IMG/VR virus record: IMGVR_UViG_3300029911_000002 | Span: 62,001-126,000 of that record | Length of the DNA: 64,000 nt | From: a virus | Direction: 5' to 3' (one strand) | Part shown: piece after piece, positions 3,146 through 63,510 of the stretch | Layout of the letters: each line of letters starts with the position of its first letter | Position numbering within the stretch: the stretch's first letter is position 1 | Translations under genes and position numbers: made by a program | Notes under the pieces: generated by a model | Told to the model about the DNA's origin: nothing | Databases searched by the model: none | What the model saw: the letters and a program-made list of their open reading frames with translations, nothing else

Positions 3146-3170
3146 GCATCAATTAAATTGATTCTTTTTT
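3146..3170. terminator. Bidirectional terminator
   Basis: ATCAATT/AATTGAT hairpin flanked by an A-run and a T-run, between convergent genes. Confidence 0.75.
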
Positions 3171-3675
3171 ATAAGTTAAAGTTTGAAGATGCTAAATGAA
3201 GAGGTAAATTTTCAGTTATAACATCATATAAAATTTTGAATTCATCAATTATATCACCCATTGTTTTAGATTTTTTAATAATATTTTCTATTATAGGTGA
3301 ATATATTTCAGTTAATTCAGTGTATACGTTATCTGGCATTTTCCTAATCTCAATTTTTGATGGACCTCCTATAAATCCATTAATTGGTGATGTATGATAT
3401 TTAATTCTATTAACTGAATATTTTGGATTCATTGATTGCATAGCTGATTCCCTCTCTTTTTCTGTTATTATAATTTTTCTTAATTCAGGATCATTTAAGC
3501 ATTCAGATTTTTCTATTATTTGTTCAATAATACCATAAATTGGAGAGCATGACCGATAATTAGTACCATAAGTCATATTTCCGTTACTGTTATTTATAGT
3601 AATATTAAAATCTTTATTCTTATATAAAGTAATTTCTCTCTCTTTCTGTTTTTCAAACGTTTTTAAATATTTCAT
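3169..3675 (-). CDS. KFN-family protein
   Basis: 168 aa, MKYLKTFEKQ at the N-terminus and SSNFNL at the C-terminus. The middle has no recognisable domain. Last gene of the minus-strand run. Confidence 0.65.
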   Translation of the reverse strand: MKYLKTFEKQKEREITLYKNKDFNITINNSNGNMTYGTNYRSCSPIYGIIEQIIEKSECLNDPELRKIIITEKERESAMQSMNPKYSVNRIKYHTSPINGFIGGPSKIEIRKMPDNVYTELTEIYSPIIENIIKKSKTMGDIIDEFKILYDVITENLPLHLASSNFNL

Positions 3676-4936: not shown

Positions 4937-5184
4937 AAATTAAATTTATTGGTATTTAATAATAATTCAAAATTTTCAATTTCTAATGAAGTTAAAAATC
5001 TTAAAATTTGTTCTTTAATAATTCCAATTTTACATATTTCATTTTGAACTAAATAAAATGACTCGTCTTTTTTAATTATTTTAGCATCAAATGTATAGTT
5101 ATTTTGTCTATATTTTATATAATCACCAACTTTACAATCGTTAGGATTAAATAATTTCTTTTCAAATCTTTTTATATATTTCAT
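4933..5184 (-). CDS. KFN-family protein, short SH3-like
   Basis: 83 aa. MKYIKRFEKK, VGDYIKYRQ, then a strand-rich segment and TNKFNL. Smaller than the other barrel-type members. Confidence 0.7.
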   Translation of the reverse strand: MKYIKRFEKKLFNPNDCKVGDYIKYRQNNYTFDAKIIKKDESFYLVQNEICKIGIIKEQILRFLTSLEIENFELLLNTNKFNL

Positions 5185-5678
5185 AAGTTAAATTTATCTA
5201 TATTATTATATAATCCAGGAATACTATAAATATTTCTAAAATATTTCGGAGTCATAAATTTTTCCTTCTTACAATCATAAACAAAAACTACTTCAATTTT
5301 TCTATAATCTTTTAAAAATACATGAATATCTCCAAATTCTGCTGATTCACCATCGTAATTGACTCCTAATACAAAATCTGGTCCTTCACTTACATAATCA
5401 AATTCATATTGATTGATAGCATTTACTCCATCTTTTATTGATTTTGGAGTACCATCAAACCAATCGCAAACATCTATAGCAGCAGAGATATAATCATTAT
5501 CTGTTACATCATCAGCCATTCCAAATGCATATTCTAAAATTTGATGATTTAATGGTATAGGATCATCAGAAGGTAACGGCTTACCATTACAAAAACTAAG
5601 TGCAATTTCTGGTGTAACTTCTAAATAAAATTCAGCATCATTTTGATCTAAACTTTCAAACCTTTTTATATATTTCAT
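5181..5678 (-). CDS. KFN-family protein
   Basis: 165 aa, acidic. MKYIKRFESL to NIDKFNL. The interior has a DVCDWFDGTPKSIKDGV stretch and several strands. No known fold recognised. Overlaps both neighbours by ATGA. Confidence 0.7.
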   Translation of the reverse strand: MKYIKRFESLDQNDAEFYLEVTPEIALSFCNGKPLPSDDPIPLNHQILEYAFGMADDVTDNDYISAAIDVCDWFDGTPKSIKDGVNAINQYEFDYVSEGPDFVLGVNYDGESAEFGDIHVFLKDYRKIEVVFVYDCKKEKFMTPKYFRNIYSIPGLYNNIDKFNL

Positions 5679-6534: not shown

Positions 6535-7050
6535 ATGAAACATTTGAAATTATATGAGGAATTAAAATTCAATGAGAAACAATACCATACTTATGAACTA
6601 TTGAATCTTGTTCAGATGCATGATTTAGGTTCAAAAGGAGAAGCTGAAATGATTGATATGATAAATTCTGGACAAATAGATTTAAATTTACAAGATCAAC
6701 TAAGTTATAGAACAGCTTTAATATATTCTATGATTAATAGATATGAAAAAGTATTTGATGAATTGATAAAATCAGATGTGAATTTAGATTTACAAGATGA
6801 TAATGGAAATACAGCATTAATAATCTCAGCAATAGGTAGCACTGGAAGTAGTAGTGATTATTATAAATCTATAATGGAAAAATTAATTGATGCAGGAGCA
6901 GATTGGAATAAAACACAAAATTATGGACGTGAAAAAGATTTTCTTGAACATATACAAGATAACGAATTTAAAAGACATATATTAAAGAAATATCATAAAC
7001 AATATGAAATATATTTAATGATAAAAACTTCTGAAAAATTTAATATATGA
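6535..7050 (+). CDS. Ankyrin-repeat KFN-family protein
   Basis: 171 aa from the ATG at 6535; an in-frame ATG at 6484 lies upstream of the promoter-like tract and the MKHLKLYEE motif, so I prefer 6535. About three ankyrin-like units are visible: DLNLQDQLSYRTALIYSM, NLDLQDDNGNTALIISA and a unit ending DAGADWNK. Ends SEKFNI. Ankyrin repeats bind proteins, so a host or phage protein is the likely partner. Confidence 0.8.
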   Translation: MKHLKLYEELKFNEKQYHTYELLNLVQMHDLGSKGEAEMIDMINSGQIDLNLQDQLSYRTALIYSMINRYEKVFDELIKSDVNLDLQDDNGNTALIISAIGSTGSSSDYYKSIMEKLIDAGADWNKTQNYGREKDFLEHIQDNEFKRHILKKYHKQYEIYLMIKTSEKFNI

Positions 7051-7520
7051 AATATATAAAAACATTTGAACAAAATTTAGATTTAAATAATGAATTAATA
7101 GACTCTTGTATAAATAATAATATAAAAAAAGTTGAAAGTTTAATAAAACAAGGAGCTGATGTTAATTATATCAATAAAGATGGTTTCAACTCATTAATAT
7201 ATTCTGTTAATAATATTGATATTTTAAAAATATTAATTAAAAACGGAGCGGATGTAAATATCCAAGATACTACAAATCAAGGTTATACACCATTATTACT
7301 AGCATCCTCTAATAGATTTATGTTTCCTTATATCGAAAATTATGATACTATAAAATTATTAATAGATTCAGGAGCTGATTGGAATGTTAAAGGTAGAATT
7401 GTTAAAATTACTTTTTTTGATTATTTACCTACTGAAATTAAAGAAAAAATTAAAAAAGATTATCCAGATAAATATGAAGATTATTTATTACAACAAGAAG
7501 CTGAAAAATTCAACATATAA
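7047..7520 (+). CDS. Ankyrin-repeat KFN-family protein
   Basis: 157 aa. MKYIKTFEQN, then ankyrin units with the typical KQGADVNYINKDG, KNGADVNIQD and DSGADWNVKG turns; ends AEKFNI. Overlaps the previous ankyrin gene by ATGA. The C-terminal motif is present although no gene follows, so it is not only a device for starting a downstream gene. Confidence 0.85.
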   Translation: MKYIKTFEQNLDLNNELIDSCINNNIKKVESLIKQGADVNYINKDGFNSLIYSVNNIDILKILIKNGADVNIQDTTNQGYTPLLLASSNRFMFPYIENYDTIKLLIDSGADWNVKGRIVKITFFDYLPTEIKEKIKKDYPDKYEDYLLQQEAEKFNI

Positions 7521-17807: not shown

Positions 17808-18350
17808 ATGAAATATTTGAAAAAATTTGAAAATTATGATTTAAGAGGAGAATATCCTGATATGTTTGAACCAAGAACAGAAGAGGACGAGCCTCAAATT
17901 GTACCAGGGTTTGAAGATGGTACAATAGATCCAGATGATGATGAGGTATATCATATTAGTAGTGAAGTTAGTGAGAAGGAACAATATGAAAATTTTAAAA
18001 AAATAACAAAAGAAAGAAATTTCAAAGAAACTAATAATGAAATAATTATAAACATTCACAAATTATATCATGATTTTTATATGTCTATTTATAATCCTAA
18101 TAAGCATTATTCAAAATTTCTAAGAGAAGAAATTATAGGTAAATATATATCAGATGGAGTAATTGATTTTATGACTGATATAAAATATCATGGTATAATA
18201 AAAGGATTAAACTTTCAATATATTAATGAAAGTGCTCTTGTTTCTGCTGAATTAGTCGGAATAGATGAGTTAAAATACGAAAATTCAATATGTATGAATA
18301 TTATTACTATTGATAAACTAAAGACTAATGCAAATAAATTCAATTTATGA
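17808..18350 (+). CDS. KFN-family protein
   Basis: 180 aa. MKYLKKFENY to NANKFNL; an acidic segment with proline (PRTEEDEPQIVPGFEDG) at residues 22-40, then a helix-strand region. Preceded by a TTTTTTTTATATATA tract. Confidence 0.7.
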   Translation: MKYLKKFENYDLRGEYPDMFEPRTEEDEPQIVPGFEDGTIDPDDDEVYHISSEVSEKEQYENFKKITKERNFKETNNEIIINIHKLYHDFYMSIYNPNKHYSKFLREEIIGKYISDGVIDFMTDIKYHGIIKGLNFQYINESALVSAELVGIDELKYENSICMNIITIDKLKTNANKFNL

Positions 18351-46477: not shown

Positions 46478-46756
46478 ATGAAATTTATTAAAACTTATGA
46501 ATTTTTCGAATATAACATTCCTGAAAAAATTAAAAAATTAGCAATTGAATTAGAGTTTAAATTTAGAACTACAAGTAAAGAAGATATGAAAAATAAAACT
46601 ATCTTCCAAATTATAAAAGAACTTGGATTTGATTCAGGTGAATTATCTGGAGCTGAATTAGGACAAATTCTAATGTACCAAATGAAATTTAATAAACAAA
46701 CAGATGAAGAATATCTTAAATTCTATAATGATTATAAAAAAAATCCTGAAATTTAA
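46478..46756 (+). CDS. Small protein with KFN-type N-terminus only
   Basis: 92 aa. MKFIKTYEFFEYN start and no KFNL end. Helical, with IIKELGFDSGELSGAELGQIL. Preceded by TTTTTTATATATAA; the terminator begins in its last codons. Confidence 0.55.
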   Translation: MKFIKTYEFFEYNIPEKIKKLAIELEFKFRTTSKEDMKNKTIFQIIKELGFDSGELSGAELGQILMYQMKFNKQTDEEYLKFYNDYKKNPEI

Positions 46757-46772
46757 ATTTCAGGATTTTTTT
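46742..46772. terminator. Bidirectional terminator
   Basis: AATCCTGAAATTT/AAATTTCAGGATT hairpin flanked by A and T runs. It ends both the gene at 46478 and, on the minus strand, the tRNA operon. Confidence 0.85.
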
Positions 46773-46773
46773 G

Positions 46774-46844
46774 TTCTTTCTCTAAGATTTGAACTTAGTC
46801 ATTCATTGTCAGAAAATGATATGCTATCATTACATCAAGAAAGA
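46774..46844 (-). tRNA. tRNA-Gln (anticodon CUG)
   Basis: 71 nt, full cloverleaf. Acceptor TCTTTCT/AGAAAGA (7 bp, weak U1-A72 as in Gln tRNAs), D stem ATG/CAT, anticodon stem TCATT/AATGA with loop TTCTGAC, T stem CTAAG/CTTAG with loop TTCAAAT. CCA not encoded. Reads CAG. It follows the UUG tRNA by 6 nt. Confidence 0.85.
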
Positions 46845-46850
46845 ATATTG

Positions 46851-46936
46851 TCGCCTTGGTGGGGTTCGAACCCACAAGCTCACAATGAGCATCAGTTTCA
46901 AAGACTGAAATGTTTAGCCAATTCCATCACAAGGCA
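46851..46936 (-). tRNA. Long-variable-arm tRNA with anticodon UUG
   Basis: 86 nt. Acceptor TGCCTTG/CAAGGCG (U1-G72 wobble), D stem ATG/CAT, anticodon stem TCAGT/ACTGA, loop CTTTGAA giving anticodon TTG, T stem GTGGG/CCCAC, and a variable arm GCTCA-TTG-TGAGC. The body looks like tRNA-Leu (class II), but UUG reads the Gln codon CAA. A73; no encoded CCA. Charging identity is uncertain. Confidence 0.85.
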
Positions 46937-46946
46937 GTATATTAAC

Positions 46947-46972
46947 AAAAAACCCAACATAAAATGTTGGGC
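46947..46972 (-). terminator. Second attenuator terminator before the tRNAs (segments 4:5)
   Basis: CCCAACAT (46971-46964) pairs with ATGTTGGG (46960-46953), 8 bp with a 3-nt loop, then T6. It lies between the first terminator and the tRNA, so the tRNAs are made only by readthrough or anti-termination. Confidence 0.8.
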
Positions 46973-46974
46973 AC

Positions 46975-47004
46975 AAAAAAACCCAAACCATTTCAGGATT
47001 GGGT
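46975..47004 (-). terminator. First attenuator terminator (segments 2:3)
   Basis: ACCCAATCC (47004-46996) pairs with GGTTTGGGT (46989-46981) with one T-T mismatch and a 6-nt loop, followed by T6. Segment 2 can instead pair with segment 1 at 47032-47025. Confidence 0.85.
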
Positions 47005-47032
47005 AAAAAACAGACATGACTCTAACCCAATC
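46997..47032 (-). promoter_or_regulatory. Antiterminator pairing (segments 1:2)
   Basis: GATTGGGT at 47032-47025, which starts inside the stop codon of the leader peptide, is an exact 8-bp complement of ACCCAATC at 47004-46997. A ribosome at the stop codon would cover segment 1 and allow the terminator; a ribosome held at the Gln codons 14-26 nt upstream would leave it free. Confidence 0.8.
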
Positions 47033-47084
47033 AAACGTAAGTTTGTTGTTGTTGCTGAATCATGTTTGAAATATTATTATTCAT
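47031..47084 (-). CDS. Gln-rich leader peptide of the tRNA attenuator
   Basis: 17 codons: MNNNISNMIQQQQQTYV. The five Gln codons are CAG CAA CAA CAA CAA, the codons read by the two tRNAs encoded just downstream. Sensor of Gln-tRNA supply by ribosome stalling, as in amino-acid operon leaders. It follows the gene at 47131 on the same strand, so it can be on the same transcript. Confidence 0.8.
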   Translation of the reverse strand: MNNNISNMIQQQQQTYV

Positions 47085-47130: not shown

Positions 47131-47334
47131 TTAAGTTTTTTCTATTTTTAAATTTTCTAAATCTTTTTTTGTTGCAATTTCGAATAATTGAATATATTCA
47201 TGTAATTCCAAATCACATAATCTTTTTTTATCAAATAATCTTAGCATAGTTTCCCATCTATCGGCTTCATTCCAATCTAATAAATAATAATATCCTCTAT
47301 CTGGAACCTGAGTATCATCTATTAATTCTTTCAT
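47131..47334 (-). CDS. Small hypothetical protein of the tRNA operon
   Basis: 67 aa, acidic. MKELIDDTQVPDRGYYYLLDWNEADRWETMLRLF. No domain recognised. It lies behind the two-hairpin leader and promoter at 47359-47487 and ahead of the Gln leader peptide, so it probably shares their transcript. Confidence 0.6.
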   Translation of the reverse strand: MKELIDDTQVPDRGYYYLLDWNEADRWETMLRLFDKKRLCDLELHEYIQLFEIATKKDLENLKIEKT

Positions 47335-47358
47335 ATTTTTAATTTTTTAATTTATTAA

Positions 47359-47487
47359 ACTTCCTTACTGAATATATCAGTAAGGAAGTCTTTCTAAAAA
47401 CTAAGTAATACAACTAACAAAATTTAACAAAAAGAAACATCTTTTGCTTCACAGCAAATTGTAGATGTAAAAAGAAATCCAAAGATA
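47359..47487 (-). ncRNA. Structured 5' leader, copy A (UGUGAA two-hairpin element)
   Basis: Host-type promoter TATCTTTG at 47487-47480. Hairpin 1 (47467-47438): outer CATCT/AGATG, inner TTTGC/GCAAA, loop TGTGAA. Hairpin 2 (47389-47359): 12-bp ACTTCCTTACTG/CAGTAAGGAAGT. The coding sequence at 47334 follows. Pairing is retained in copy B through base changes. Confidence 0.7.
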
Positions 47488-47746: not shown

Positions 47747-48187
47747 ATGAAACATTTAAAAACATTTAAAATATACGAAACAGGAGAATGGAGTAGAGAT
47801 GTAAATTGGAACTATGTTAAAGATAATCCTGATGATGATAGTGAAGAAGCAAGTTTAATTAGGTATTTAGAAGAAAGATTAGATTATATAATTTCAAATT
47901 TAGATAATGATACTATATTAAAAATAAAAGATATTAGAGGACACGATTTATATCAAGGTGCTTATGCTATAGTTAGTATATTTGGGAAAACATATAAAAT
48001 TTGGAGTATGGAAAGTTCTGGATTAGAAGATGAATTATATATTGAAGGATTTCCAATTAACAATTTAGATGAAAATTCTAATCCTGGATATGTTGGTGAC
48101 ACAGAAAATATAGCAGAATTATTAAATAGTATTAATGAAGTTGGAGGAATTGAAATATATAAAACAACAAATAAATTTAACATATAA
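47747..48187 (+). CDS. KFN-family protein
   Basis: 146 aa. MKHLKTFKIYETG to TTNKFNI. Beta-rich middle (IVSIFGKTYKIWSMES). TTTTTATATATAA tract upstream. Confidence 0.7.
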   Translation: MKHLKTFKIYETGEWSRDVNWNYVKDNPDDDSEEASLIRYLEERLDYIISNLDNDTILKIKDIRGHDLYQGAYAIVSIFGKTYKIWSMESSGLEDELYIEGFPINNLDENSNPGYVGDTENIAELLNSINEVGGIEIYKTTNKFNI

Positions 48188-48188
48188 T

Positions 48189-48680
48189 ATGATAACAAAA
48201 TTTAATATATTTACTCTAAATGAGACTATGATATCTCATGATACACGTGAGTTACGCAGTGGTAATTATTTAACATTAGAAAGATTAGAAAATGGGAATC
48301 TTAAAATATCATTAACTGAAGAAGGAAAAGAAAAAGTTGAAGAAGATATTGATATAAAGGAAGCAGATTTTTTTGATTATTTTGAAAATATATCTTCAAA
48401 CTCTGAATTATTATATATTTATAATATTTCTGATATTGGTATTATGATGGAAGCTCCTTGTATTACAATAGGATATTATATTGATGATTCTGGTGAATTA
48501 ACTGACGAAGGTAATGAAGATTACTCAGAAATTTTTTATTATGCTGATTATGCTATTAAAAATTTCACAGAAGAATTAAAAAATAACGGATTTGTAATAT
48601 TCCAAACATCTGGTGTATTAACTCCAGAAGAATTTGAAGAATTTAAATTAAATAAATCAGCAAACAAATTTAACATATGA
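48189..48680 (+). CDS. KFN-family protein
   Basis: 163 aa from the ATG at 48189, which gives MITKFNIFTLNE and normal spacing after the preceding stop; a longer frame from 48135 runs inside that gene. Acidic; ends SANKFNI. Confidence 0.68.
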   Translation: MITKFNIFTLNETMISHDTRELRSGNYLTLERLENGNLKISLTEEGKEKVEEDIDIKEADFFDYFENISSNSELLYIYNISDIGIMMEAPCITIGYYIDDSGELTDEGNEDYSEIFYYADYAIKNFTEELKNNGFVIFQTSGVLTPEEFEEFKLNKSANKFNI

Positions 48681-61102: not shown

Positions 61103-63510
61103 GTTGAGATTCCCTTACGGATTTATATAAATAATATCGAATTCGACTTCTGTGCGACCTTGTTCGTCGTTGAGACTCCCTTACGGATTTATATAAATAA
61201 TATCTTCACTTAATGTAATAAATTCTAAATCATGTTGAGACTCCCTTACGGATTTATATAAATAATATCTTATCATTTTTTTCAAAAATAGAAAGAGAAG
61301 TTGAGATTCCCTTACGGATTTATATAAATAATATCTTATCATTCAGAATTATTTTTTCTTCTTTAGTTGAGACTCCCTTACGGATTTATATAAATAATAT
61401 CAACTATAGAAACAATAGAAAGAGATTTATTGTTGAGACTCCCTTACAGATTTATATAAATAATATCAATATTTGTCATTTGTTTTTCTTCTATATATGT
61501 TGAGACTCCATTACGGATTTATATAAATAATATCTAAACTGTCATCTAAATGATCATTTGATTTGTTGAGACTCCCTTACGGATTTATATAAATAATATC
61601 ATTATCTGAATATGCTGCAAATCATAAACTGTTAAGACTCCTTTACGGATTTATATAAATAATATCTGCATACAGAATTCACCGTTGTAATTCATTGTTG
61701 AGACTCCATTACGGATTTATATAAATAATATCTTTAACAAGTGTCTTCCCTCCTTTTCTATAGTTGAGATTCCCTTACGGATTTATATAAATAATATCTA
61801 AATACTCTGAATATTCAACTGGTAAGAAGTTGAGATTCCCTTACGGATTTATATAAATAATATCAAAATCATCTGTGAAAATTGGAGTTACACCGTTGAG
61901 ACTCCCTTACGGATTTATATAAATAATATCAAATTATTTTATAACTGAATATCAATCAATGTTGAGACTCCCTTACGGATTTATATAAATAATATCTGTT
62001 GTACCTAAAACTAAAACTGTTTCTCTGTTGAGACTCCCTTACGGATTTATATAAATAATATCTAATTCTAATTCTAAATCTGTATAATCACCGTTGAGAC
62101 TCCCTTACGGATTTATATAAATAATATCTTATTTGAAAATCTTTACAAGAAAATCAGGGTTGAGACTCCCTTACGGATTTATATAAATAATATCTTACCA
62201 ATTAAGAAAAAGAATTGATACCTTGTTAAGACTCCCTTACGGATTTATATAAATAATATCTTATTAATAGATGTGCTGGCACCACCTTCGTTGAGACTCC
62301 CTTACGGATTTATATAAATAATATCTTTTGTATTTGAAATAATATCACTTCCTTTGTTGAGACTCCCTTACGGATTTATATAAATAATATCTTATATTAC
62401 TATATTTATTAAATATGATAAGTTGAGACTCCCTTACGGATTTATATAAATAATATCTGAATCACTTTTTGTTTTACGTAGTAATTCGTTGAGACTCCCT
62501 TACGGATTTATATAAATAATATCATCAAGAACTTCGGTTGCCTTTAATTCATTGTTGAGACTCCCTTACGGATTTATATAAATAATATCCTATAACCTCC
62601 CTATTTTTTTCATCAACTGTTGAGACTCCCTTACGGATTTATATAAATAATATCATATAATCACTTCTTTTCCTGCTCTGCTTTGTTGAGACTCCCTTAC
62701 GGATTTATATAAATAATATCATTGCACTAAAAATGTCATTAATAGGGTTCGTTGAGACTCCCTTACGGATTTATATAAATAATATCGCACTTTTCCCATT
62801 TTTTCTGGCTACACTTGTTGAGACTCCCTTACGGATTTATATAAATAATATCATTTCTTCTTTGAATGATTTGTAGAAATATGTTGAGACTCCCTTACGG
62901 ATTTATATAAATAATATCTAGCGTATTTGATTCTAATAAGCAATATGTGTTGAGACTCCCTTACGGATTTATATAAATAATATCACCGATTAACTCTTTT
63001 CTTAATTGACTATAGTTGAGACTCCCTTACGGATTTATATAAATAATATCTAGCGTATTTAATGTAAATAAGCAATATGTGTTGAGACTCCCTTACGGAT
63101 TTATATAAATAATATCAAAAGCGAATTCAACATTGACTGACGCTCGTTGAGACTCCCTTACGGATTTATATAAATAATATCGACAAATTAAATACATATA
63201 TATAACATATGTTGAGACTCCCTTACGGATTTATATAAATAATATCTGATATAATTGAAAGTCAATCATTTTATTTGTTGAGACTCCCTTACGGATTTAT
63301 ATAAATAATATCCTGTTATGTTAGAATAAGTAATTGCACTATGTTGAGACTCCCTTACGGATTTATATAAATAATATCAAATCTATTTAAAGAGATTGAA
63401 CAGCTAGAGTTGAGACTCCCTTACGGATTTATATAAATAATATCTAGCAGAACAGGATAGACATCAATTCATTGGTTGAGACTCCCTTACGGATTTATAT
63501 AAATAATATC
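61103..63510 (-). CRISPR. CRISPR array, 37 repeats of 36 bp, 36 spacers of 29-31 bp
   Basis: In plus-strand reading the repeat begins GTTGAGACTCCCTTACGG and ends ATTTATATAAATAATATC. Repeats between 61103 and 61864 include variants (R1, R4, R6, R7, R9-R12); from 61895 to 63510 all but R18 are identical. The degenerate end is therefore the trailer, next to cas3, and the leader is on the cas6 side, so transcription is on the minus strand. The mature 3' handle would then be the GTCTCAAC end. Spacers 28 and 30 are near-duplicates. Confidence 0.95.

Follow-up and report, generated by a model that had tools for sequence, protein, structure and literature searches.

The window, 64 kb that run from position 62001 to position 126000 of a virus record 214,510 bases long, carries on its minus strand a short open reading frame (ORF), a series of complementary segments and two tRNA-Gln genes. 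From 5' to 3' on that strand, the features are as follows.

47084 to 47031, minus strand: leader ORF of 17 codons, ATG at 47084 to TGA at 47031, encoding MNNNISNMIQQQQQTYV and then the stop, read directly from the DNA
47057..47064, minus strand: 5' arm of an enclosing helix, CATGATTC, paired with 47022-47015 in the minimum free energy (MFE) structure
47043..47057, minus strand: candidate sensor codons CAG CAA CAA CAA CAA (Gln)
47025..47032, minus strand: segment 1, GATTGGGT, the putative antiterminator arm, overlapping the leader stop codon
47015..47022, minus strand: 3' arm of the enclosing helix, GAGTCATG, paired with 47064-47057 in the MFE structure
46997..47004, minus strand: segment 2, ACCCAATC, common to the antiterminator 1:2 and the terminator 2:3
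46975..46989, minus strand: segment 3, GGTTTGGGT at 46989-46981 with a T run to 46975, forming the first intrinsic terminator with segment 2
46964..46971, minus strand: segment 4, CCCAACAT, partner of segment 5 or of segment 3
46947..46960, minus strand: segment 5, ATGTTGGG at 46960-46953 with T6 at 46952-46947, second intrinsic terminator
46850..46936, minus strand: tRNA-Gln, anticodon UUG, reading CAA
46773..46844, minus strand: tRNA-Gln, anticodon CUG, reading CAG
46737..46772, no strand: bidirectional terminator-like palindrome at the end of the tRNA operon, scored on the plus strand

The initial annotation had described the leader and its Gln codons correctly to the base, and its five-segment scheme, with the T6 runs and the overlap of segment 1 with the stop codon, was found at the same positions. 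The two tRNA-Gln genes it had named were recovered by both ARAGORN and Rfam; only the end of tRNA-Gln(CUG) had to be moved, to 46773. Segment 2 is a perfect complement of segment 1; its pairing with segment 3 contains one mismatch and is followed by the T run. The helix 47064-47057/47022-47015, an addition to the initial annotation, surrounds the Gln codons and segment 1. The fold of the leader RNA was better than that of 200 of 200 shuffled sequences (z=-3.7), three terminator-like sites were observed against 0.5 expected in 6 kb, and (CAR)4 without mismatch has no second occurrence in the 64-kb window. The palindrome at 46737..46772 contains both T and A runs, so its minus-strand reading is identical. 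A DNA similarity search with the locus against an annotated phage collection gave no match.

Several other features of this genome were recorded. A 67-aa gene (47131-47334) lies 5' of the leader, has no Pfam match and is related to genes of phages that do not carry this tRNA array (L020-L022); ahead of it stands a near-perfect hairpin, GACTTCCTTACTGA/TCAGTAAGGAAGTT (window 47356-47391), whose Rfam match was sub-threshold only. Many otherwise unrelated proteins of the window begin with MK[YH][LIV]K[TL][FY]E or a similar motif, finish with [NS]KFN[LI], or show both (for example those encoded at 3169-3675, 5181-5678, 7047-7520, 17808-18350 and 48135-48680), and such common termini could serve as a signal for processing or targeting. 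An amber suppressor tRNA, with anticodon CUA (G000:C1:4949-5020, L023), is located directly after an ORF that continues through an in-frame TAG. Because this suppressor tRNA is present in the same genome, the reading of TAG as Gln was considered and rejected: treating TAG as sense did not lengthen the ORFs, and overall the genome follows the standard code. Weak tRNA-like elements that ARAGORN did not call include a short array of odd sequences (G000:C1:23136-23413, L024) and a near-identical pair 1.9 kb apart (210635/212548, L031).

Conservation of the element in related phages

With the 67-aa upstream gene as the lead, 14 loci were collected, and the element is present in 11 of them, in three haplotypes. 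The Gln run is kept in all relatives. Across the haplotypes, leader codon changes are silent (AAT/AAC, ATT/ATC) save one (TCA/TTA), and the nine codons before the leader stop are unchanged. Segment 1 is invariant in these window-type relatives and occurs as well in L050, a much diverged phage found by pattern scan. The L050 locus has the leader MKNLSNMVQQQQM ending in a stop codon and the same 1:2:3 segments, and it lacks the second terminator; downstream come a small gene and three Gln tRNAs, and the remaining tRNAs of this phage are located elsewhere. The arrays of the relatives vary in make-up (UUG and CUG in the window; UUG, UUG, CUG, UUG in L017), yet all tRNAs called in them are Gln.

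In the enclosing helix, one-sided changes leave the pairing intact in L014, and L017 has one mismatch. In terminator 2, an A-U pair has become U-A in L016/L017, a compensatory exchange; this terminator is accessory, because it is absent in L050 and has one pair weakened in L014/L015. The initial annotation had named conservation of the Gln codons and of the alternative pairings in related phages as a check, and the three haplotypes and L050 all retain the Gln run, 1:2, 2:3 and Gln-only arrays. No relative was found in which the tRNAs had been kept and the Gln codons or the alternative pairing lost.

Folding of the window RNA with and without a ribosome

A ribosome was modelled by masking the RNA as far as 12 nt beyond the point where the A-site codon begins and folding the free remainder; the read-outs were terminator probability and the proportion of segment 2 held upstream before segment 3 exists. 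With the ribosome at the stop codon, or with no ribosome, the terminator 2:3 had P=0.95. Whichever of the five Gln codons the ribosome occupied, segment 1 held segment 2 (0.95-0.99), and segment 4 was held by segment 3 at 0.77-0.89, against 0.02-0.03 otherwise, therefore the second terminator is predicted to be pre-empted too. The untranslated RNA also takes the terminator form, because the enclosing helix hides the Gln codons and segment 1. The switch proposed in the initial annotation, 1:2 plus 3:4 opposing 2:3 plus 4:5, was thereby reproduced by masked and unmasked folding.

The same layout in other phage tRNA operons

Relatives were gathered through a tail-like protein, not through terminase, and the regions upstream of tRNA clusters in related records were scanned. 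A layout recurred in which the end of a short ORF repeats part of the 3' arm of a terminator, and the ORF encodes the amino acids of the tRNAs that follow. The leader QHPQPQHPQ precedes His and Gln tRNAs, LSLCLSLSLSL precedes Leu, Ser and Cys tRNAs, GCDWQQE precedes Gly/Trp/Cys/Gln/Glu/Asp tRNAs, and IIRMRIIR precedes Arg, Ile and Met tRNAs; likewise KKQQYKQYQPQYK stands before Tyr, Gln and Lys tRNAs and MTTSFQQQQQQQ before four Gln tRNAs. The layout is found in huge phages with genomes of 462-735 kb (LR756500-LR756504, LR745206) and in Lak phages, where the leader GMHPVCGMVHMFPCGGGRPM precedes His, Pro, Arg, Gly, Cys and Met tRNAs. Among cultured phages, Cellulophaga phi38:1 has the leader LLHQEPLEQLRLP before Pro, Glu, Gln, His, Leu and Arg tRNAs, and Agrobacterium Atu_ph07, Salicola SCTP-2 and Vibrio KVP40 also carry the layout. 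Three candidate attenuators were counted in phi38:1, whose host is Cellulophaga baltica, and four in SCTP-2, a phage of Salicola sp. PV4. Since SCTP-2 (L237) and the IMG/VR case L145 have a sigma-70-like promoter and Shine-Dalgarno-like sequences, the class extends beyond phages of Bacteroidota. In L133 the arrangement is nested: the first leader contains Asp and precedes tRNA-Asp, and the second leader, 3' of tRNA-Asp, has no Asp and retains Lys, Gln and Tyr. The reading given in the initial annotation to one operon thus extends to dozens of phage tRNA operons with leaders matching their own tRNAs.

Candidate attenuators ahead of a tmRNA with tRNAs, or of a tmRNA-containing operon, were noted in L067, L103 and L196/L204. 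The L067 leader has 17 different amino acids and is without A, E and V, for which no tRNA was called in its array. The L271/L286 leader, 42 aa long and with every one of the 20 amino acids in it, is ahead of an array of more than 20 tRNAs.

Leader composition and tRNA content

For the statistics, leaders were chosen by an ORF rule blind to composition, namely the longest ORF that begins with ATG, has 10-60 codons and stops 0-60 nt short of a terminator, itself no more than 700 nt from a tRNA. Leaders with more than 60% likeness to another were removed, chance-like calls (e.g., L126, L193, L227 16477 and L234 12632) stayed in, and leaders shuffled among operons served as the null model. In 44 cases, the proportion of leader residues in the tRNA set was 0.392, compared with 0.180 after permutation (z=13.8), and the +1 and +2 frames of the same DNA gave z=1.0 and -2.7, so that the match is confined to the leader frame. 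Loci gathered by DNA pattern alone gave z=6.6 (24 cases, 0 of 20,000 permutations), and all 77 non-redundant cases together gave 0.440 vs. 0.258 (z=16.9, 0 of 100,000 permutations). The rule yielded no case in T4, XacN1, crAss001, PAU or pT24, and some phage tRNA arrays therefore seem to lack an attenuator.

In the D/E/V/L/A/W leader family, 91% of amino-acid changes stayed within the operon's set vs. 45% expected, as pairwise counts that are non-independent. N/S was about 0.5 and 0.4 in two leader families. Codon-box matching inside a single amino acid was weak, with P=0.03 for Leu, P=0.01 for Arg and no match for Ser.

Tandem terminators often occur between genes and AT-rich phage DNA has many short ORFs, so one might take the hairpins for ordinary terminators of the upstream gene and the codon-matched ORFs for coincidence. 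We consider this very improbable, as the correspondence greatly exceeds permutation and is specific to the frame, segment 1 repeatedly overlaps the leader stop or comes shortly after it, and a median of 27 nt separates the stop from the terminator arm downstream of it. Moreover, the gap between the second terminator and the first tRNA in the window is only about 10 nt, which leaves little room for a separate promoter.

The frame dependence also bears on direct binding of uncharged tRNA by the leader RNA in the manner of a T-box, an idea suggested by an output that is tRNA of the same kind. The signal lies in an ORF and depends on its frame, neither of which a T-box specifier needs; Rfam gave only tRNA and chance matches at the locus, and no T-box match even at E up to 1. 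We give this explanation almost no weight.

Position within the leader was informative as well. Between 10 and 25 codons ahead of the stop the enrichment ratio of the match was 2.0-2.5, and over the final six codons it was only about 1.15. Such fading near the stop is what attenuation predicts, because a ribosome stalled there would cover segment 1. Leaders could be regulatory in another way, acting through translation on RNA stability or processing (hairpins could also be processing sites), or by stalling of opposite polarity that lowers tRNA output. This is improbable in our judgment, since T runs accompany the hairpins, it is precisely a ribosome at the stop that covers segment 1, and the match declines over those codons at which a stalled ribosome would hide this segment, a combination that fits termination and antitermination of the trp type.

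Specificity of the three-segment RNA and folding across the class

The three-segment DNA pattern TCGGGT/ACCCGA/TCGGGTTTTTT had 33 matches in viral contigs, 29 of them directly before tRNA arrays. In cellular genomes (84,980 species, one genome each), the same pattern gave 28 matches and none near a tRNA; one of these (L249) is a pyrB-type attenuator and serves as a natural positive. Other stems had lower specificity. The TTGGGT stem recovered the window family, two new tRNA/tmRNA cases and one noise match, and tRNA-linked matches with other stems were 2 of 9 for CTGGGT, 7 of 35 for AGGCTT and 6 of 23 for TGGGGT. The TGGGGT pattern mostly represents another conserved element, and its tRNA-linked set consists of three leader families (P=0.33). 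Pattern matches without tRNAs were discarded: most of the additional matches of one scan were inside protein genes, and another scan showed convergent terminators at gene ends. The association between the three-segment RNA and tRNA arrays is strong, and we do not claim every such RNA as a tRNA control. A different conserved phage RNA element, TTACCTTTTCGTTTTTT ... GTGGGGTTGAACCC ... ACCCCAACAACTCGTTGGGGTTTTTT, was seen in L274, L279, L289 and similar loci, ahead of a small lipoprotein-like gene and with no tRNA near.

Across 75 cases, with the ribosome at the stop codon, segment 2 was held upstream at 0.11 on average and the terminator stood at 0.95; with the ribosome stalled on cognate codons, the values were 0.67 and 0.76, respectively. 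As stalling exposes more RNA, shuffled upstream RNA was used as the control and gave 0.47 compared with 0.77 observed, the observed value being higher in 72 of 74. In these other operons the terminator often still wins at equilibrium when the ribosome is stalled; the switch there would therefore be kinetic, with 1:2 forming first during transcription.

Discussion

Ribosome-mediated attenuation has long been established for the trp, his, leu, thr and phe leaders of enteric bacteria. Like those attenuators, the phage elements have a leader ORF rich in cognate codons, mutually exclusive hairpins and a U-run terminator before the genes, and the stop codon is placed so that a terminating ribosome would mask the antiterminator arm and one stalled on the sensor codons would not. 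In contrast to the amino-acid operons, the genes regulated here would be phage tRNA genes and not biosynthetic enzymes, the leaders are often multi-amino-acid (up to all 20), and nested operons with successive leaders occur. We therefore regard the phage elements as a variant of the classical amino-acid operons and not as members, because the downstream genes are tRNAs and not genes for amino-acid synthesis or tRNA charging. T-box riboswitches likewise respond to tRNA charging, often by antitermination, but read the uncharged tRNA directly without translation. In pyrBI-type attenuators, coupled translation of a leader likewise opposes a terminator, but UTP is sensed through polymerase pausing, not codon supply, and the logic is opposite.

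Considering the results above, we conclude that the window element is very probably a ribosome-mediated transcription attenuator of a phage tRNA-Gln operon, and part of a widespread class that stands before phage tRNA arrays. The attenuator reading of the initial annotation is well supported by the folding, conservation and composition of these sequences. In the model that we propose, RNA polymerase would make the leader RNA while a ribosome translates it. When Gln-tRNA is plentiful, the ribosome would reach the stop codon and cover segment 1, 2:3 (together with 4:5) would form, and transcription would stop before the tRNAs. When charged Gln-tRNA is short, the ribosome would stall on the Gln codons, 1:2 and then 3:4 would form, both terminators would be pre-empted and the tRNAs would be made. 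Untranslated window RNA would adopt the terminator form. In leaders of multi-tRNA operons, the codons of several tRNAs stand together, so shortage of any one should open the operon. Translation of the leader, termination and readthrough in cells, the opening of the operon by stalling and the shortage of charged tRNA as the signal are steps we infer from sequence and predicted structure.

Such a loop makes most sense if tRNA itself is limiting, because extra tRNA would not cure a lack of amino acid. Phage tRNA arrays have been interpreted as a counter to host tRNA depletion, and tRNA-cleaving defences offer a natural cause of tRNA limitation (van den Berg et al., 2023, PMC10264068); evasion of a retron by phage tRNAs has also been described (PMC11555353). 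Our results concern the same genes and a compatible purpose, and transcription control that would sense supply is the new element. The benefit to the phage may be the replacement of host tRNAs lost in infection. It is likely that phages of several bacterial phyla use codon-sampling leaders, some with nearly all amino acids, to feed back tRNA supply on any shortage, such as that arising when host defences cut host tRNAs.

The text of PMC10264068 contains neither "attenuat" nor "leader", and a full-text literature search, limited largely to open-access papers and part of the preprints, returned no leader or attenuator control of phage tRNA genes. The mechanism class itself is known; as far as we could find, this would be the first description of attenuation of tRNA operons, and such a use, with multi-amino-acid leaders, appears to be new.

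The reason for the presence of tRNA genes in phages has long been disputed, over decades, with codon compensation on one side and replacement of host tRNAs lost or cut in infection on the other. If our model is true, the expression of phage tRNAs would be tied, separately for each amino acid, to an actual shortage of the charged tRNA at the ribosome, which amounts to a declaration of their purpose, and the question would become open to direct test in cultured phages. From a 30-codon leader one could predict which tRNAs an operon contains, and the leaders would provide natural modular sensors for each amino acid. Together they would constitute a class of translation-supply sensors not described before.
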